Assembly (NCBI RefSeq): GCF_031583575.1
Contig: NZ_CP134146.1
Span: forward strand, 3,534,001-3,598,000
Direction: 5' to 3'
Length of the DNA: 64,000 nt
Source of the DNA: Thalassotalea nanhaiensis
GTDB lineage: Bacteria > Pseudomonadota > Gammaproteobacteria > Enterobacterales > Alteromonadaceae
The position numbers and the translations under genes are program-made. This document shows, in pieces, positions 26,561 through 31,470 of the stretch (positions within the stretch are counted from its first letter, which is position 1; every line of letters begins with the position of its first letter). The notes beneath the pieces were generated by a model. It was not told the DNA's origin. It worked only from the letters and a program-made list of their open reading frames with translations, and made no database searches.

Positions 26561-26588
26561 TTGAAACAATTGAAAATAGACATATTAT
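26561..26588 (+). promoter_or_regulatory. Candidate promoter of the lipoprotein-DUF350 genes
   Basis: TTGAAA (26561-26566), 16-bp spacer, TATTAT (26583-26588). The -10 hexamer lies inside the palindrome GACATATTATGTC, so a protein bound there would block polymerase. The assignment rests on this overlap and on the match to the sigma-70 consensus. Confidence 0.5.
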
Positions 26589-26591
26589 GTC
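26579..26591. promoter_or_regulatory. Palindromic operator copy 1, GACATATTATGTC
   Basis: Six-base perfect inverted repeat GACATA / TATGTC around one base. The same palindrome recurs at 28607-28619 and, with the central base inverted, at 28643-28655, and I see it nowhere else in the window. All three copies lie in the two main upstream regions of the PspA-like cluster. Confidence 0.7.
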
Positions 26592-26605
26592 GTTAGTGGT
26601 ATTAA

Positions 26606-26646
26606 TACCAATTCTCGCTAAGTGGGTAAACCTAAGAGATTTGGTA
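26606..26646. repeat. Imperfect inverted repeat in the leader of the lipoprotein gene
   Basis: Arms TACCAATTCTC and GAGATTTGGTA pair at 10 of 11 positions across a 19-base loop. It lies in the 5' untranslated region between the candidate promoter and the ATG. It could be an RNA hairpin or a remnant of a small repeat element. Confidence 0.5.
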
Positions 26647-26688
26647 TACACCCTTTACCTTAGCATTTTTGAAGGAAAGAGAGCAGGA

Positions 26689-27669
26689 ATGCAATCAATA
26701 AAAATTATATTGCTGATGATAGCCATAACGTTAACTGGTTGTGGCGACCCATATATTGAGCAAGTTAAAGGCCAAACGCCTATTACCGAACAACGCATTG
26801 CACAACTTGGCAATGCTCTTGAAAACGGTCAAGTACGTAACGCAAACTTGATCAATCAATACGCAGAAAAAATACTATCCATAAATCCAGATATGGAGCC
26901 ACTTGTTGAAGAATTTAAAAAAGACGCAACAATTAATGGCCCGATGTATTTGGCATTGTTAGACCGTATACAAACGGTTAAAAGTCAGCCTCAGATGTTT
27001 GAGAGTAATCAGGCAGTTTATCAGGAATTGCTTAATATTTATCAAGCTGGTGACCCGGTTTTATATTCAGATGCATTAAGTGACCCATTAAACGTATTAG
27101 CGGATATGTCAGCTGGCGCTTTGCCTAGAATTAATTCCGTGAGTAAAGAACAAGGCTTAGCCGCAAATAATGCCCAAGATTTTGGGGTTGGATCGCAGCT
27201 AGTGGGTAACCCATCTTATGGTAGCTGGCAAACCGACAGTTCTGGCATGTCGTTTTGGGCTTGGTATGGCATGTACTCAATGATGGGTAATATGTTTGGC
27301 GGTAATCGTATTTATTATGATAGTTGGGGCCGAAATAGAGGTTACAGTTATTACAATGACTATGGTCGTAGTCGATACACCTCACCAAGAGATATGCGTA
27401 AACAATCGCAGGTTGAAACCAGAACGCGTAAATCATTTGAAAGTAAAGGTCAAAAGTTTACCAGCACTTACAGCAAAAACCGTAAGGGCTCTTCAGGTTT
27501 GTCAAAGCAAAGCCAAAATGCACAAAAAACGGCGAGCAAATTTCGTAGTAATGGCTCGAGTAAATCTAAATTTAGTAAAAAATCGAGATACTCAAAACAA
27601 GCCACCAAACCGCGTTTTCGTCAAAAAAGAAAATCATTTATATCTCGCGGTTTTAGACGTAGAAGATAA
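26689..27669 (+). CDS. Predicted lipoprotein with strongly basic, Ser/Lys/Arg-rich C-terminus
   Basis: 326 residues from the ATG at 26689, chosen because CAGGA lies just upstream and because it yields a lipoprotein signal: KIILLMIAITLTGCGDPY with the lipobox LTGC. The frame stays open upstream to 26551, but that part overlaps the promoter and operator. The middle part (about 25-170) is helical and polar. It is followed by a Gly/Met/Trp/Tyr-rich stretch (SFWAWYGMYSMMGNMFGGN) and a tail of about 110 residues with about 40 Lys/Arg and many Ser, ending in RGFRRRR. I do not recognise a family. The position 14 bp before the DUF350 gene suggests a common role at the envelope; the basic tail could contact anionic lipids, LPS or peptidoglycan. 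Confidence 0.8.
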   Translation: MQSIKIILLMIAITLTGCGDPYIEQVKGQTPITEQRIAQLGNALENGQVRNANLINQYAEKILSINPDMEPLVEEFKKDATINGPMYLALLDRIQTVKSQPQMFESNQAVYQELLNIYQAGDPVLYSDALSDPLNVLADMSAGALPRINSVSKEQGLAANNAQDFGVGSQLVGNPSYGSWQTDSSGMSFWAWYGMYSMMGNMFGGNRIYYDSWGRNRGYSYYNDYGRSRYTSPRDMRKQSQVETRTRKSFESKGQKFTSTYSKNRKGSSGLSKQSQNAQKTASKFRSNGSSKSKFSKKSRYSKQATKPRFRQKRKSFISRGFRRRR

Positions 27670-27683
27670 TAGGAAAAATACAT

Positions 27684-28586
27684 ATGGATAACTTATTAAA
27701 TTTTGCTGCAATTGATCAGCACATACTCATCATTCTTGCTATCGATATTGGCATTGCAATATTGTTGCTCTCAGCAATGCGCTTTATCGCCGGATTGTCA
27801 GCTAAGGTAAATACTACTGACGAACTGGCTAAAGAAGACAACTTTGCCTTTGGCATTAGTGTAGCTGGCTCTGTTGCTGCGTTAGGTATTGTAATGACAG
27901 GGGCAATTACCGGTGAACATGCTTCAAGCTATGAAGTAGAAGCTATTGGCATGTTTTCTTATGGTTTATTTGGTCTGATATTGATCAAACTAGGACGTTT
28001 AATTCACGATAAAATTGCACTCAATCAACTGGATAAAATGGCCGAGATTAAAAAACGAAATATTTCGGTAGGTATTGTTGACGCTGCTGGCGTTATTGCT
28101 ACGGCAATCGTTATTCGCGCGGTACTAATTTGGGTTGATGGTTTAGATGTATATACCTTTGTCGCTATAGGCAGCGGCTTTGTCGTATCGCAGGTGATAT
28201 TGGTGCTGGTTACTCGCATTCGTGAAGTGCATTTTGCTAAAAATAACCAAAAGGACTGTATGCAAGAGGCGTTAACTGACGGTCAAATAGCTTTGGCGAT
28301 TCGTTACAGCGGTCAAATAATCTCAACAGCGCTTGCTGTTACAGCCGCCAGCTACTTTTTAATTTATACGCCAGAAACCATTGTTGAAAACTTAATGGGT
28401 TGGTTAGTATTTGGCTTGATAATGACTGTGGTTGTATCGGTACTAACATCAATTGCCAAGCGCATCGTTTTATGGGGAATTAATATGGCAGAGGAAGTAG
28501 ACCAACAACATAATGTTGGTGTTGCCAGTGTTGAAATGGCGGTAAGTATTTCTATCGCATTAATTTTAACTGCCTTAATGTTATAG
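27684..28586 (+). CDS. DUF350 family inner-membrane protein (YjfL-like)
   Basis: 300 residues with about eight TM helices arranged as two similar halves, as expected of two DUF350 units: FAFGISVAGSVAALGIVMTGAI in the first half and ALAIRYSGQIISTALAVTAA in the second. E. coli YjfL is a shorter member encoded with yjfI, yjfJ and yjfK. The function is unknown. It is the second gene of the cluster, 14 bp after the lipoprotein gene and 116 bp before the DUF2170 gene, where a second promoter and operators occur. Confidence 0.85.
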   Translation: MDNLLNFAAIDQHILIILAIDIGIAILLLSAMRFIAGLSAKVNTTDELAKEDNFAFGISVAGSVAALGIVMTGAITGEHASSYEVEAIGMFSYGLFGLILIKLGRLIHDKIALNQLDKMAEIKKRNISVGIVDAAGVIATAIVIRAVLIWVDGLDVYTFVAIGSGFVVSQVILVLVTRIREVHFAKNNQKDCMQEALTDGQIALAIRYSGQIISTALAVTAASYFLIYTPETIVENLMGWLVFGLIMTVVVSVLTSIAKRIVLWGINMAEEVDQQHNVGVASVEMAVSISIALILTALML

Positions 28587-28604
28587 AAGATAATAAATTA
28601 CACC

Positions 28605-28632
28605 TTGACATATTATGTCAACATGCTAAATT
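28605..28632 (+). promoter_or_regulatory. Candidate promoter of the DUF2170-PspA-like genes
   Basis: Perfect -35 TTGACA (28605-28610), 16-bp spacer, extended -10 TGC-TAAATT (28624-28632). The -35 box is embedded in operator copy 2, and operator copy 3 begins a few bases after the predicted start point. Confidence 0.65.
28606..28620. promoter_or_regulatory. Palindromic operator copy 2, TGACATATTATGTCA
   Basis: Seven-base inverted repeat around a central T, identical in its 13-base core to copy 1. It overlaps the -35 hexamer. Its centre (28613) is 36 bp from the centre of copy 3 (28649). Confidence 0.72.
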
Positions 28633-28642
28633 TACATTACTC

Positions 28643-28655
28643 GACATAATATGTC
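28643..28655. promoter_or_regulatory. Palindromic operator copy 3, GACATAATATGTC
   Basis: The exact reverse complement of the copy 1 core, just downstream of the predicted transcription start. With copy 2 it brackets the promoter, a layout typical of repression by paired dimers. Confidence 0.7.
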
Positions 28656-28680
28656 AGACAATATTAACTGTCTGACTTTT
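28653..28680 (+). terminator. Leader hairpin with short T-run ahead of the DUF2170 gene
   Basis: Perfect 8-base arms GTCAGACA / TGTCTGAC with an 8-base loop, followed by TTTT. It could end transcripts coming from the DUF350 gene or act as a leaky attenuator. It shares three bases with operator copy 3. The short T-run makes efficient termination uncertain. Confidence 0.5.
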
Positions 28681-28702
28681 GTCTTGATTAAAAAGGATAA
28701 CC

Positions 28703-29116
28703 ATGAACATTCATAAAATAGCTGATCATCTAAATGCATTAGCTGACCAATCGGCAACTGGATTAATGTTTGATTGCCAACCTATTTCAGGTGACGTTGA
28801 TGTTTTACAAATAACCATCACCGATCGTGAAGAGTTACCAATTTTTGTTTCAGTTACTGATGATCAAATTCTTTGTATTACCTATCTATGGGCAGAAACG
28901 GAAGTAAAAAGCAATAAACGCGTAGACATGTTAGAAGCAATGCTTGAAATGAGTATACCGATGCCATTGTCATCATTTTCGAAAATAGGCGATAAATATG
29001 TCATTTTCGGCGCACTTTCAATTGGCTCTTCATTTAATGATATTGAACATGAATTAGCCGTGCTTAGTAATAATGCAATTGAAGTAATTGACGATATGGA
29101 TGAATTTTTAGTTTAA
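28703..29116 (+). CDS. DUF2170 family protein (YjfI-like)
   Basis: 137 residues, acidic and soluble with no signal peptide. The sequence fits the YjfI/DUF2170 group by its DVLQITITDREELPIFVSVTDDQILCI strands, MLEAMLEMSIPMPLSSFSKIGDKYVIFGALS, and the C-terminal helix. The function is unknown. In E. coli yjfI precedes the PspA homologue yjfJ, and the same order holds here (58 bp gap). An AAGGAT ribosome-binding site supports the start. Family assignment is from recall of pattern and context. Confidence 0.8.
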   Translation: MNIHKIADHLNALADQSATGLMFDCQPISGDVDVLQITITDREELPIFVSVTDDQILCITYLWAETEVKSNKRVDMLEAMLEMSIPMPLSSFSKIGDKYVIFGALSIGSSFNDIEHELAVLSNNAIEVIDDMDEFLV

Positions 29117-29174
29117 ACGCAGATGCGATAAACAAAAATCTATCAATATCCAGTACAGAATTAATGGAGTACTT

Positions 29175-29864
29175 ATGAGTATTTTTAAGAAAATTATGAC
29201 CGCGATTCGCGGCGGTGCAACTGAAATGGGTGAAGGCATAGTTGATGCCAACGCTACCCGTATTTTTGAACAAGAAATTCGTGATGCAGAGAATCATTTA
29301 ACTAAAGCTAAACGCGACCTGACTGCGGTTATGGCACAACAAATGGCTTCAAGCCGTGATGTTGATAAAGTAAAGCGAGATATCGCCGAGCACGAAGGCT
29401 ACGTAGCGCAAGCGTTAGAAAAAAACAATGAGGCTTTAGCTCTACAAGTTGCAGAAAAAATTGCAAGCTTAGAAAACGAATTAACAACCGGCCAACAAGC
29501 ATTAGATAGTTTTAGTGCTAACGCTGATAGATTGAAAGATCTGGTTAAAAAAGGTGAGCGTCAGGTAACTGAGTATAAACGCCAACTTTCTATGGTTAAA
29601 ACCACCGATAGCGTGCAAAAAGCGACATCAGCAATAACGGATAATTTTTCATCAAGCAGTTCAAAATTGCTGAACGCAAAAGACTCGCTTGAACGCATTA
29701 AAGCAAAACAACAAAAATTTGATGACCAACTAAAAGCCGCAGAAGTACTTGATGCTGAAAACTCTGACAACTCGTTAGAAGCACAACTTAAAGCCGCTGG
29801 AATTGGTAGCCAAGACAATAGTGCAAACTCTGTACTTGAACGTATTAAAGCGAAACAAAAATAG
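29175..29864 (+). CDS. PspA/IM30 family protein (YjfJ-like)
   Basis: 229 residues, almost entirely alpha-helical coiled coil. The N-terminal helix MSIFKKIMTAIRGGATEMGEG is amphipathic as in PspA, followed by DANATRIFEQEIRDAENHLTKAKRDL and long heptad stretches to about residue 170. PspA-family proteins form ESCRT-III-like polymers on stressed inner membranes. The C-terminal part repeats LERIKAKQ twice (about residues 174 and 221). There is no PspB, PspC or PspF nearby, so this is not the classical psp operon but the DUF350/DUF2170/DUF2491-associated version. Confidence 0.9.
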   Translation: MSIFKKIMTAIRGGATEMGEGIVDANATRIFEQEIRDAENHLTKAKRDLTAVMAQQMASSRDVDKVKRDIAEHEGYVAQALEKNNEALALQVAEKIASLENELTTGQQALDSFSANADRLKDLVKKGERQVTEYKRQLSMVKTTDSVQKATSAITDNFSSSSSKLLNAKDSLERIKAKQQKFDDQLKAAEVLDAENSDNSLEAQLKAAGIGSQDNSANSVLERIKAKQK

Positions 29865-29890
29865 TAACGTTTCTATAAATAAAACGTGTA

Positions 29891-29914
29891 CAGGCATCAG
29901 TGATCTGATGCCTG
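29891..29914 (+). other. Intergenic RNA hairpin without T-tract
   Basis: Arms CAGGCATCA / TGATGCCTG form a perfect 9-bp stem with loop GTGATC, between the PspA-like and DUF2491 genes. Without a U-run it is more likely an mRNA-stability or processing hairpin than a terminator. Confidence 0.5.
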
Positions 29915-29943
29915 CTAAATTACTCTAAATTTACTGGTGGCAG

Positions 29944-30585
29944 ATGAGCTTTTTTAAAAAGCTGTTTAATAAAGACAGCAATACACAACGTCAATTAAAC
30001 CAACCCCAAGATCTAATGATTAACGATATCATTATTTTTTCTGACAGCTTTGCCCTACCGGAAAACCTGCGCAATAGTCAATTTCAAGTCGCGCATATTA
30101 ATACTCATGAATTTGAGCATAGTCAAATTACTGAATGGCAACTCGATGGCTCCGCCAACCAGCAGATTTATTTAAGCCTTGAACAAGGTCAACAGCAATA
30201 CTTGAAACTTACCATGAAAATTGCTGATGGTTGTATAGAAGAATTGTTTAACCTTGATGAATTTTCTGAAATATTCGACGCCCCTGGTAATGCATTGTTA
30301 AGCAGAATTGCTGAGACATCACCAACACTTGGATGGACGAGCGAGCAATATCAACAAACTACCTTTGCGCAAATGGGTTACTTTCATCGTCAAGATCATC
30401 GCACTAATAAACCGTCAGAATTTGAAGGTGAAGACTCGGGCGAAGTATTTGAATTTTATAGCTTACGCGGTGTTGATGATCAATACTCTATTGACATTCA
30501 AATATGGCAAGATGGCGACACCGATGTATTTTTGAATTTATACCGCCCAACATCCGATATCAAAGAATATTATCCAGGAAGCTAA
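29944..30585 (+). CDS. DUF2491 family protein (YjfK-like)
   Basis: 213 residues, soluble and acidic. It starts MSFFKKLFNKD, an amphipathic basic helix similar to that of the preceding PspA homologue, which may also bind membrane. Core motifs: YLSLEQGQQQYLKLTMKI, and YSIDIQIWQDGDTDVFLNL near the C-terminus. It corresponds to yjfK of E. coli by position and pattern. The function is unknown. It ends 1 bp before the next gene, so the two are co-translated. Confidence 0.82.
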   Translation: MSFFKKLFNKDSNTQRQLNQPQDLMINDIIIFSDSFALPENLRNSQFQVAHINTHEFEHSQITEWQLDGSANQQIYLSLEQGQQQYLKLTMKIADGCIEELFNLDEFSEIFDAPGNALLSRIAETSPTLGWTSEQYQQTTFAQMGYFHRQDHRTNKPSEFEGEDSGEVFEFYSLRGVDDQYSIDIQIWQDGDTDVFLNLYRPTSDIKEYYPGS

Positions 30586-30586
30586 G

Positions 30587-30910
30587 ATGACGACTAGGAA
30601 AGTACCTGACAAATGGCAATCAAATGTAAACGCAGTTAAAGCTGTACAAGTTGCATTTGATATGGATGAAAAAGTACAGAAAGAAATACGAAAAGCGGCA
30701 GTTGAAGCTAGCCTAAGTCCTTCAGATCAAATCAGAATGATATTAGGGCTACCAGTTCATAAAAAACCTAAACGTCCTCGTTTAACAGTGTCTCTTAGCG
30801 GTGAAGACTATCAAGTATTAGGTGAAAAGTACGGTATAGAGCCCACGCAACAATTGGAAATAAAACGCAAATTAATGGATGAATTAATCGACTTTGTTAA
30901 TAACAGTTAA
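30587..30910 (+). CDS. Small protein with two ribbon-helix-helix-like segments, candidate regulator
   Basis: 107 residues. Residues about 17-54 (VKAVQVAFDMDEKVQKEIRK, then helix AAVEASLSPSDQIRMILGLP) have the strand-helix-turn-helix pattern of CopG/MetJ-type RHH proteins, and about 64-105 (RPRLTVSLSGEDYQVLGEKY and QQLEIKRKLMDELIDFV) look like a second unit. A basic linker (KKPKRP) joins them. I do not recognise a named family. A tandem RHH protein could bind a palindrome as a single chain or as a dimer of pseudo-dimers, which makes it the best local candidate to bind the GACATA-W-TATGTC operators. This is inference from pattern only. Confidence 0.7.
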   Translation: MTTRKVPDKWQSNVNAVKAVQVAFDMDEKVQKEIRKAAVEASLSPSDQIRMILGLPVHKKPKRPRLTVSLSGEDYQVLGEKYGIEPTQQLEIKRKLMDELIDFVNNS

Positions 30911-31005
30911 ATTTAACGTTAATTGATTACAACTCGTTACTACATTATTCAGCGAATGAGAGTAGAATGGCTGAGTATTCGTCTGTTTAGAGAGTGTCAA
31001 TTTCT

Positions 31006-31470
31006 ATGCTAGTTTTTATCCGCAAAGTACGTTTTTATAAAGTCGATGAATTCGGCGTTAAGAATTATCACAACAGTTACCTTATTGCTATGGCCTTTGT
31101 CATGCTATACGCAATTATGTTCTTATTTTCTGGTGCATTATTACATTTCGAAAGCGCTTATAGCGACGCCAACATCACCACATTTTATGAAGCCTTTTGG
31201 ACATTACAAATGACTGCTAGCACGATTGGCTATGGCGATTTTCATCCGGTATCAACGGGCGGCAAAGTCATAGCAACGTTAACGTTTTATATCGGCTTCG
31301 GTTTAGTAGGTTTTATTGTTACCAAGGTAGTAGGCTCGTTTATTGGTTTTTCAAATACCGATGTAAGGAACCGAGAATTACGTAAGCAAAATGCTGAAAT
31401 TATTGAGCGTAATAAAATGCTTGAGAGAAAAGTAGACTCGTTAGTAAAAGTGTTAGAAAAAATCAGCTAA
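31006..31470 (+). CDS. Two-TM potassium channel-like protein with C-terminal coiled coil
   Basis: 154 residues from the ATG at 31006 (a GTG four codons upstream at 30994 is an alternative). TM1 (about 25-48), pore helix and selectivity filter MTASTIGYGDFHPVSTGG containing TIGYGD, TM2 (about 85-110), then a heptad-rich tail (ELRKQNAEIIERNKMLERKV) suited to tetramer formation. It resembles KcsA-like channels. It is the last gene of the cluster, 95 bp after the RHH-like gene. A channel beside a PspA homologue suggests a role in ion or potential control under membrane stress. Confidence 0.88.
   Translation: MLVFIRKVRFYKVDEFGVKNYHNSYLIAMAFVMLYAIMFLFSGALLHFESAYSDANITTFYEAFWTLQMTASTIGYGDFHPVSTGGKVIATLTFYIGFGLVGFIVTKVVGSFIGFSNTDVRNRELRKQNAEIIERNKMLERKVDSLVKVLEKIS

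Follow-up and report, generated by a model that had tools for sequence, protein, structure and literature searches.

A 13-bp palindrome shared by the promoters of a PspA-type gene cluster in Thalassotalea nanhaiensis, and a predicted tandem ribbon-helix-helix protein as its candidate repressor

How are relatives of PspA activated outside the PspF system? The question is raised by a stretch of 64,000 nucleotides of the Thalassotalea nanhaiensis genome (RefSeq assembly GCF_031583575.1, contig NZ_CP134146.1, positions 3,534,001 to 3,598,000; hereafter the window), in which positions 26,561 to 31,470 hold seven clustered genes coding for a lipoprotein, a DUF350 protein, a DUF2170 protein, a PspA/IM30 relative, a DUF4178-like protein, a 107-residue ribbon-helix-helix (RHH)-like protein and a two-helix potassium channel. 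The answer proposed here, to which a probability of roughly 0.78 is given, is that the 107-residue protein (30587-30910), acting as a tandem RHH repressor, binds the palindrome GACAT-N3-ATGTC, represses its own operon and controls an inner-membrane stress regulon standing apart from PspF. This would provide a candidate repressor with a single 13-bp site and a short list of targets. At the sequence level it is supported by the sites themselves, their rarity, their position, their conservation and their phyletic match with the RHH gene.

The palindrome and the promoters of the cluster

The window has three exact copies of GACATAWTATGTC (26579-26591, 28607-28619 and 28643-28655) and no others, which agrees with the statement of a first-pass annotation of this DNA that its copies are found only at the two promoters of the cluster; a scan allowing up to two mismatches gave 6 matches in the window for 1.62 expected. 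The palindrome also proved rare genome-wide, a check that the same annotation had called for: the whole genome (one contig, 4.31 Mb) holds 6 exact places, compared with 0.06-0.15 expected from Markov models of the window and with 0 for the reversed pattern used as control. When up to two mismatches are allowed there is no genome-wide excess (82 places versus 94 for the control), and the signal therefore resides in exact or nearly exact copies. A looser definition of the operator was rejected, as sites with one or two mismatches are not in excess in this genome, and so was an operator longer than 13 bp, since no flanking position carries more than 0.13 bits across 120 sites.

The genes, promoters and sites are arranged as follows (window coordinates):

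26561..26588, + strand: sigma70-type promoter of the lipoprotein-DUF350 unit, TTGAAA-16-TATTAT, 10/12 consensus, its -10 within the palindrome
26579..26591, no strand: putative operator GACATATTATGTC, over the -10 of the lipoprotein-DUF350 promoter
26689..27669, + strand: lipoprotein gene; lipobox LTGC seen by eye, no Pfam family over cut-off
27684..28586, + strand: DUF350 membrane protein gene, YjfL-like (Pfam PF03994, 4e-34)
28605..28632, + strand: sigma70-type promoter of the DUF2170-PspA unit, TTGACA-16-TAAATT, with TG ahead of the -10
28607..28619, no strand: putative operator O1, containing the last four bases of the -35
28643..28655, no strand: putative operator O2, beginning 10 bases past the -10, on the expected start point or directly behind it, and 36 bp from O1
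28703..29116, + strand: DUF2170 gene, YjfI/BacA-like (Pfam PF09938, 4e-37; NCBIfam BacA model 1e-14, under its cut-off)
29175..29864, + strand: PspA/IM30-family gene (Pfam PF04012, 2.2e-37, 129 bits, cut-off 33.9)
29944..30585, + strand: DUF4178-like gene; no family over cut-off for the protein itself, DUF4178 at E 3e-4 (under cut-off) for the L156 orthologue
30587..30910, + strand: gene of the 107-residue putative tandem RHH protein, proposed as repressor from its phyletic match with the palindrome and from model and fold comparison
31006..31470, + strand: two-helix potassium-channel-like gene (Pfam Ion_trans_2, 1.6e-9), in a frame open from the GTG at 30994

These Pfam matches uphold the earlier gene labels PspA/IM30, DUF350, DUF2170 and potassium channel. 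The label DUF2491, earlier given to the gene at 29944, was dropped, no match to that family being found in Pfam. As consensus matches, the promoter boxes lie where they had been placed, with the palindrome inside the first -10, on the second -35 and just after the second start point; over the region as a whole, promoter-like matches show no excess (15 versus 17.4 in shuffles).

The same layout recurs in the named RHH loci, that is, the best 80 of 274, which come from Colwellia, Thalassotalea and their relatives and include four loci of Aeromonadaceae. Exactly two exact sites stand close together before DUF2170 in 76 of the 80 (within 125 bp in 74, further apart in L202 and L207) and one exact site precedes the lipoprotein gene in 70, the named loci containing no further exact sites; in the four Aeromonadaceae loci the pair is replaced by one copy of GACTTATTATGTC, roughly 10 bp ahead of the DUF2170 start. 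Across the 77 exact pairs (76 loci plus the window), TT always precedes O1 to make TTGACA, TG always stands ahead of the -10, and a -10, mostly TAAATT (67), fits at a spacer of 16 in 76. In every one of them O1 overlaps the -35 and O2 starts about ten bases after the -10, with an O1-O2 spacing of 36 bp in 51, 35 in 21, 37 in 4 and 39 in 1. Both arms of the palindrome are conserved in O2, which is no promoter box. Elsewhere in the order, 18 of 20 clusters from other families have sites before DUF2170, either exact or with one or two mismatches (single in L265, L271 and L272), the two without being L269, where the contig ends after 46 upstream bases, and that of genome G139. Pairs 31-40 bp apart are found in eight families of the order (f1, f2, f6, f7, f11, f12, f15 and f16), at 35-65% G+C, and outside the order the sites are spaced by 15-46 bp. 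A terminator-like hairpin with a T-rich tail was also noticed in the DUF2170 leader (28653-28676), overlapping the end of O2.

Association of the palindrome with the RHH gene

Genomes were sampled from the same family (118), the order (394, of which 35 of the same family) and the class (203). The samples and the named loci are not mutually independent because they overlap (L172 and G038, for example, are the same contig of 664,069 bases). In the family sample, 93 genomes have DUF2170, 54 have the RHH gene and 56 have the palindrome. All 54 genomes with the RHH gene carry the exact palindrome (314 sites), compared with one (a single site) of the 39 that have DUF2170 without it and one (two sites) of the 25 that have neither. 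The palindrome is conserved before orthologous clusters, as had been expected, though for the RHH-linked type alone, with an exact pair in 76 of 80 loci; 38 of the 39 family genomes with DUF2170 and no RHH gene lack an exact copy anywhere. Upstream regions of 26 RHH-less DUF2170 genes (400 bp each) contained no pair and two lone matches with two mismatches. Of the two DUF2170 genes of G022, only the one linked to RHH has a site.

In the order sample the RHH gene was found in 116 genomes of 11 families, always with DUF2170 in the same genome, and 92 of these have exact sites (396 sites). Among the remaining 24, 22 belong to family f11 and all of them have the variant pair GACATWTAATGNC and GACATTWAATGTC, while G408 has GACATTTTATGTC twice and G352 falls outside the sites that were read. 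A covariation between residues and operator is not claimed, because, next to f11 with its changed operator centre and an I for V at one strand position, the other variants follow no clean rule. Exact sites also occur in 7 of the 47 order genomes with DUF2170 and no RHH gene (11 sites; G222 and G392, both among the seven, are assemblies of 500-600 contigs, 88% and 93% complete) and in 16 of the 231 with neither (18 sites). In the class sample, seven genomes have the RHH gene, namely G000 (the genome studied here), G001 and five from outside the order; in all five the gene adjoins DUF2170 and PspA, with palindromes or near-palindromes in front.

In a tree with 94 DUF2170 entries (87 different proteins; some of the loci were entered twice), all 62 RHH-linked proteins fall on one side, together with the DUF2170 protein of G139, and 61 of the 62 have a site, L269 being the one without. 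Judged from these sequences, RHH gene and palindrome form for the most part one inherited unit, kept over long times and across 35-65% G+C.

Further targets and the relation to PspF

It had been proposed that the shared operator joins the two transcription units into one regulon. This is supported, with the correction that the regulon extends beyond the cluster, to a YidC-like gene and an NfeD-SPFH operon here and to HtpX, NhaA and YqiJ-like genes in relatives. The palindrome is not private to the cluster, because this genome has three further exact copies at two other loci. Two of them, 30 bp apart, stand directly before a 216-residue YidC/Oxa1-type gene (L007:5726-6376; 60KD_IMP, 8.6e-25), and the third overlaps with the earliest possible start codon of an NfeD open reading frame (ORF), behind which come two SPFH (Band_7) genes; this third copy is also 89 bp upstream of an Rce1-like protease gene on the opposite strand. 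Of the three places with one mismatch in this genome, one lies across the start of an ORF that by eye resembles a glycosyltransferase gene, another overlaps the first possible start of an ORF of the TraB/PrgY/gumN family, and the last (L356:2062-2074; G000:C1:2123361) is 158 bp upstream of a gene for a Bax1-I membrane protein, presumably of YccA type, which is a possible further target and was not counted among the targets.

The context of 121 distinct exact sites was surveyed with mechanically called starts and ORFs of at least 100 residues, a site being interior when at least 40 nt from both ends. The survey left out the psp cluster sites of G025, G056, G069, G355, G455 and G317, one or more sites of G122, G132, G191, G207 and G355, all sites of G346 and those of G192 other than its cluster. 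None of the 121 sites is inside an ORF; a called start lies no more than 100 bp away for 98 of them and no more than 250 bp away for 119, and at one of the two remaining sites (L296) an HtpX gene that the ORF caller had missed was found by tblastn 28 bp behind the site. Families of recurring targets were assigned by Pfam on one representative each and by blastp for the other members. HtpX genes stand behind sites in 13 genomes (f1, f6, f12, f15, f16 and f23), including all five genomes with fetched sites of f6, which may be Shewanella, and genes for proteins without a Pfam match, which we take to be YqiJ-like, also in 13 (f1, f6, f15 and f23). NfeD follows in 11 (f1, f6 and f12) and NhaA in 8 (f1, f16 and f23), in addition to Band_7 proteins, alpha carbonic anhydrase (3), YidC-like proteins (2) and classical PspA (2); an Mrp antiporter and YbjQ are among the single cases. 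HtpX was rejected as a target in the present genome, which has no close HtpX (28% match only). The target set looks like a regulon for the protection of the inner membrane and its ion gradients, and joins functions usually studied apart, namely PspA, HtpX, SPFH/NfeD, Na+/H+ antiport and a YidC-like insertase.

Two side observations concern these targets. At nine of the 13 HtpX genes (L114, L278, L282, L287, L289, L291, L296, L307 and L315) and at another site, in L298 on the minus strand, the palindrome is preceded by CTTGA(A/T) at a distance of exactly 13 bases. The motif resembles the -35 of sigma32 (heat-shock) promoters, in which case the repressor site would lie on a heat-shock -10. Moreover, in L140 (G069) and L146 (G025) the palindrome is about 195 bp upstream of a classical-type pspA gene, which would link both PspA systems in those genomes.

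PspF is a sigma54 activator. A true PspF gene (551 bits, cut-off 443.55) is present at C1:3002393, about 0.56 Mb from the cluster and beside a classical PspA, with PspB/PspC-like ORFs seen by eye in this locus (G000:C1:3000000-3006500; L358). Because this locus is also present, two PspA systems coexist in the genome. The classical locus has no palindrome at up to two mismatches, and no PspF gene stands beside the PspA of the cluster. Control of the cluster by PspF appears unlikely, because PspF and PspA have their own locus without the palindrome and the promoters here are sigma70-like; the earlier argument against PspF also fits the sigma70-type boxes found in the operator of all 77 exact pairs. 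GG-N10-GC is in neither promoter region of the window, and in the 77 exact-pair regions GG-N10-GC occurs in 33, TGGC-N8-TTGC in 1 and a fuller sigma54 consensus in 0, a scan that is weak because the same patterns failed to find the genome's own classical psp promoter. The two systems are alike in their central PspA/IM30 protein and in the protection of the inner membrane, and differ in the sigma70-type promoters with overlapping palindromes that are found here.

The proposed repressor, its rivals and known systems

By family matches and fold, the RHH-like gene is the only one of the cluster that looks DNA-binding. Its protein is predicted to fold, over residues 17-107, into two strand-helix-helix modules (a weak model, Z below 8), a two-module fold comparable with the tandem RHH proteins TraY of F, AvtR and single-chain Arc, from which it would differ in its genomic role. 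DNA binding, the direction of regulation, the stress signal and its relay through DUF2170 and/or PspA are what we infer from this arrangement. The repressor, sitting on O1 over the -35 and on O2 by the start point, would block the sigma70 promoter of its own operon (DUF2170, PspA, DUF4178-like and RHH), and on the single site over the -10 it would block the lipoprotein-DUF350 promoter. It would further control the YidC-like insertase and the NfeD-SPFH operon in this genome, and HtpX, YqiJ-like proteins, NhaA and sometimes classical PspA in relatives. Membrane stress would lift the repression, the signal perhaps reaching the repressor through DUF2170, PspA or both.

Several points weigh against this proposal. 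The RHH fold is sub-threshold by sequence: profile matches of relatives reach E 0.027 for RHH_1 and 0.003 for a NikA-like profile, both under the curated cut-offs, and the window protein itself matches neither an RHH profile nor, significantly, the sequence of any solved structure (best E 0.71). Its structure model is weak, with a predicted local distance difference test (pLDDT) score of 69.7 and a predicted template modelling (pTM) score of 0.34. Foldseek returned no match in the PDB at E 0.001 or better, and VIA-align, confined to 265 Foldseek candidates, gave Z values all below 8, which according to the tool's warning may mean only a common arrangement. Many sites were seen once only, before unrelated-looking genes, and several precede genes found a single time that lack an evident membrane role. 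Exact sites exist in 23 of the 278 RHH-less genomes of the order sample, with two in G026, and one in G117 of the family sample. In G139 the DUF2170 gene has no site and the RHH gene sits elsewhere in the genome. Finally, since the DUF2170 tree is one-sided, the match between RHH gene and palindrome represents largely one inherited unit rather than many independent gains, and its Fisher p does not come from independent events.

For the same reason another co-inherited regulator has to be weighed: a different transcription factor, encoded elsewhere and inherited with this type of cluster, might bind the palindrome while the RHH protein acts on something else. Other genes of the lineage could share the phyletic pattern, the more so as the five genomes outside the order were read around the RHH gene only and the comparison of regulators stopped short of whole proteomes. 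This explanation is considered unlikely, given that the RHH gene is the DNA-binding candidate of the cluster, that it occurs together with the palindrome in far-apart families and in five scattered genomes of the class, and that G139 keeps palindromes though its RHH gene has left the cluster. The RHH protein could also be an activator, or both activator and repressor, as single sites at varied positions relative to starts might suggest, but the O1 and O2 positions of all 77 exact pairs are the usual layout of a repressor and the promoters have near-consensus boxes and an extended -10, which makes activation a distinctly smaller likelihood. That the palindrome is no operator at all, being for instance an extended promoter box or a structure of the leader RNA, is very improbable despite its carrying the -35 or the -10 in both window promoters, as pairs are missing before the 26 RHH-less DUF2170 genes, the sequence is rare in RHH-less genomes and both arms are kept in O2.

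Two of the genomes just mentioned offer side observations. In G139 (L301, L329) two operators spaced by 36 bp belong to a separate PspA gene (58% against the PspA of the window). In G026, which has neither RHH nor DUF2170, the two exact palindromes lie about 8.5 kb apart (L128, L328), one of them before a WYL-like ORF of 419 residues recognized by eye.

In Bacillus, the SigW regulon puts PspA, proteins of the NfeD/flotillin type and membrane proteases under common control by means of a sigma factor and a membrane anti-sigma factor. The system proposed here would work alike, with a small repressor in place of the sigma/anti-sigma pair. On a broader scale, the chances seem evenly balanced that gammaproteobacteria have in it one more envelope-stress response in addition to PspF, Cpx, sigmaE and Rcs, in which a tandem RHH repressor reading GACAT-N3-ATGTC would gate YjfJ-type PspA, HtpX, NfeD/SPFH, YqiJ, NhaA and YidC-like proteins, with DUF2170 and/or PspA as the sensor that frees the promoter.

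The regulator had been held to be undescribed. In the parts of the open-licence literature consulted, no regulator with a defined site was found for the DUF2170-PspA (YjfI-YjfJ) type and no operator or regulon for the RHH gene; still, the regulator need not stay anonymous, because the RHH-like gene already in the cluster is the best candidate. The operator strings appeared in no bacterial paper of the open-licence literature searched (one unrelated plant paper had them), nothing there joined Shewanella, regulon, PspA, NhaA and HtpX, guessed locus tags gave no match, and the searched terms were absent from two comparative regulon papers (PMC3223726, PMC5343134).

The RHH gene itself is not new. 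In the consulted parts of their paper, Ravi et al. 2024 (PMC11237479) describe gammaproteobacterial PSP operons with CesT/Tir-like (DUF2170) and PspA genes, the last gene being in some cases an RHH transcription factor; those parts give neither an operator nor a regulon nor a mode of control for it, the word 'operator' being absent from the main text. The second group of these operons shares DUF2170-PspA, DUF350, lipoprotein and DUF4178 with the window cluster, in which DUF2170, PspA and DUF350 are all over cut-off. The potassium channel after the RHH gene is extra here, and the spermidine-synthase-like fusion gene of the Ravi operons is missing from the window cluster, with no room for it between DUF350 and DUF2170: DUF350 ends (28586) about 120 bp before DUF2170 (28703), compared with about 2 kb in most other named loci.

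In E. coli, yjfIJKL likewise unites DUF2170 with relatives of PspA and DUF350 in one envelope-linked operon, which was strongly raised in heat-evolved strains, an effect ascribed to the loss of one base 80 bp upstream of yjfI, with no regulator named in the sections consulted (PMC12492005). In the Bac operon of P. aeruginosa, too, DUF2170 (BacA) is followed by a PspA relative; the paper, in which RHH goes unmentioned, proposes a sigma54 promoter for it and reports that the levels of the five other Bac proteins are 6- to 13.5-fold higher in biofilms of a bacA mutant (PMC10948618). By analogy, this rise is the nearest hint that DUF2170 may take part in relaying the signal.

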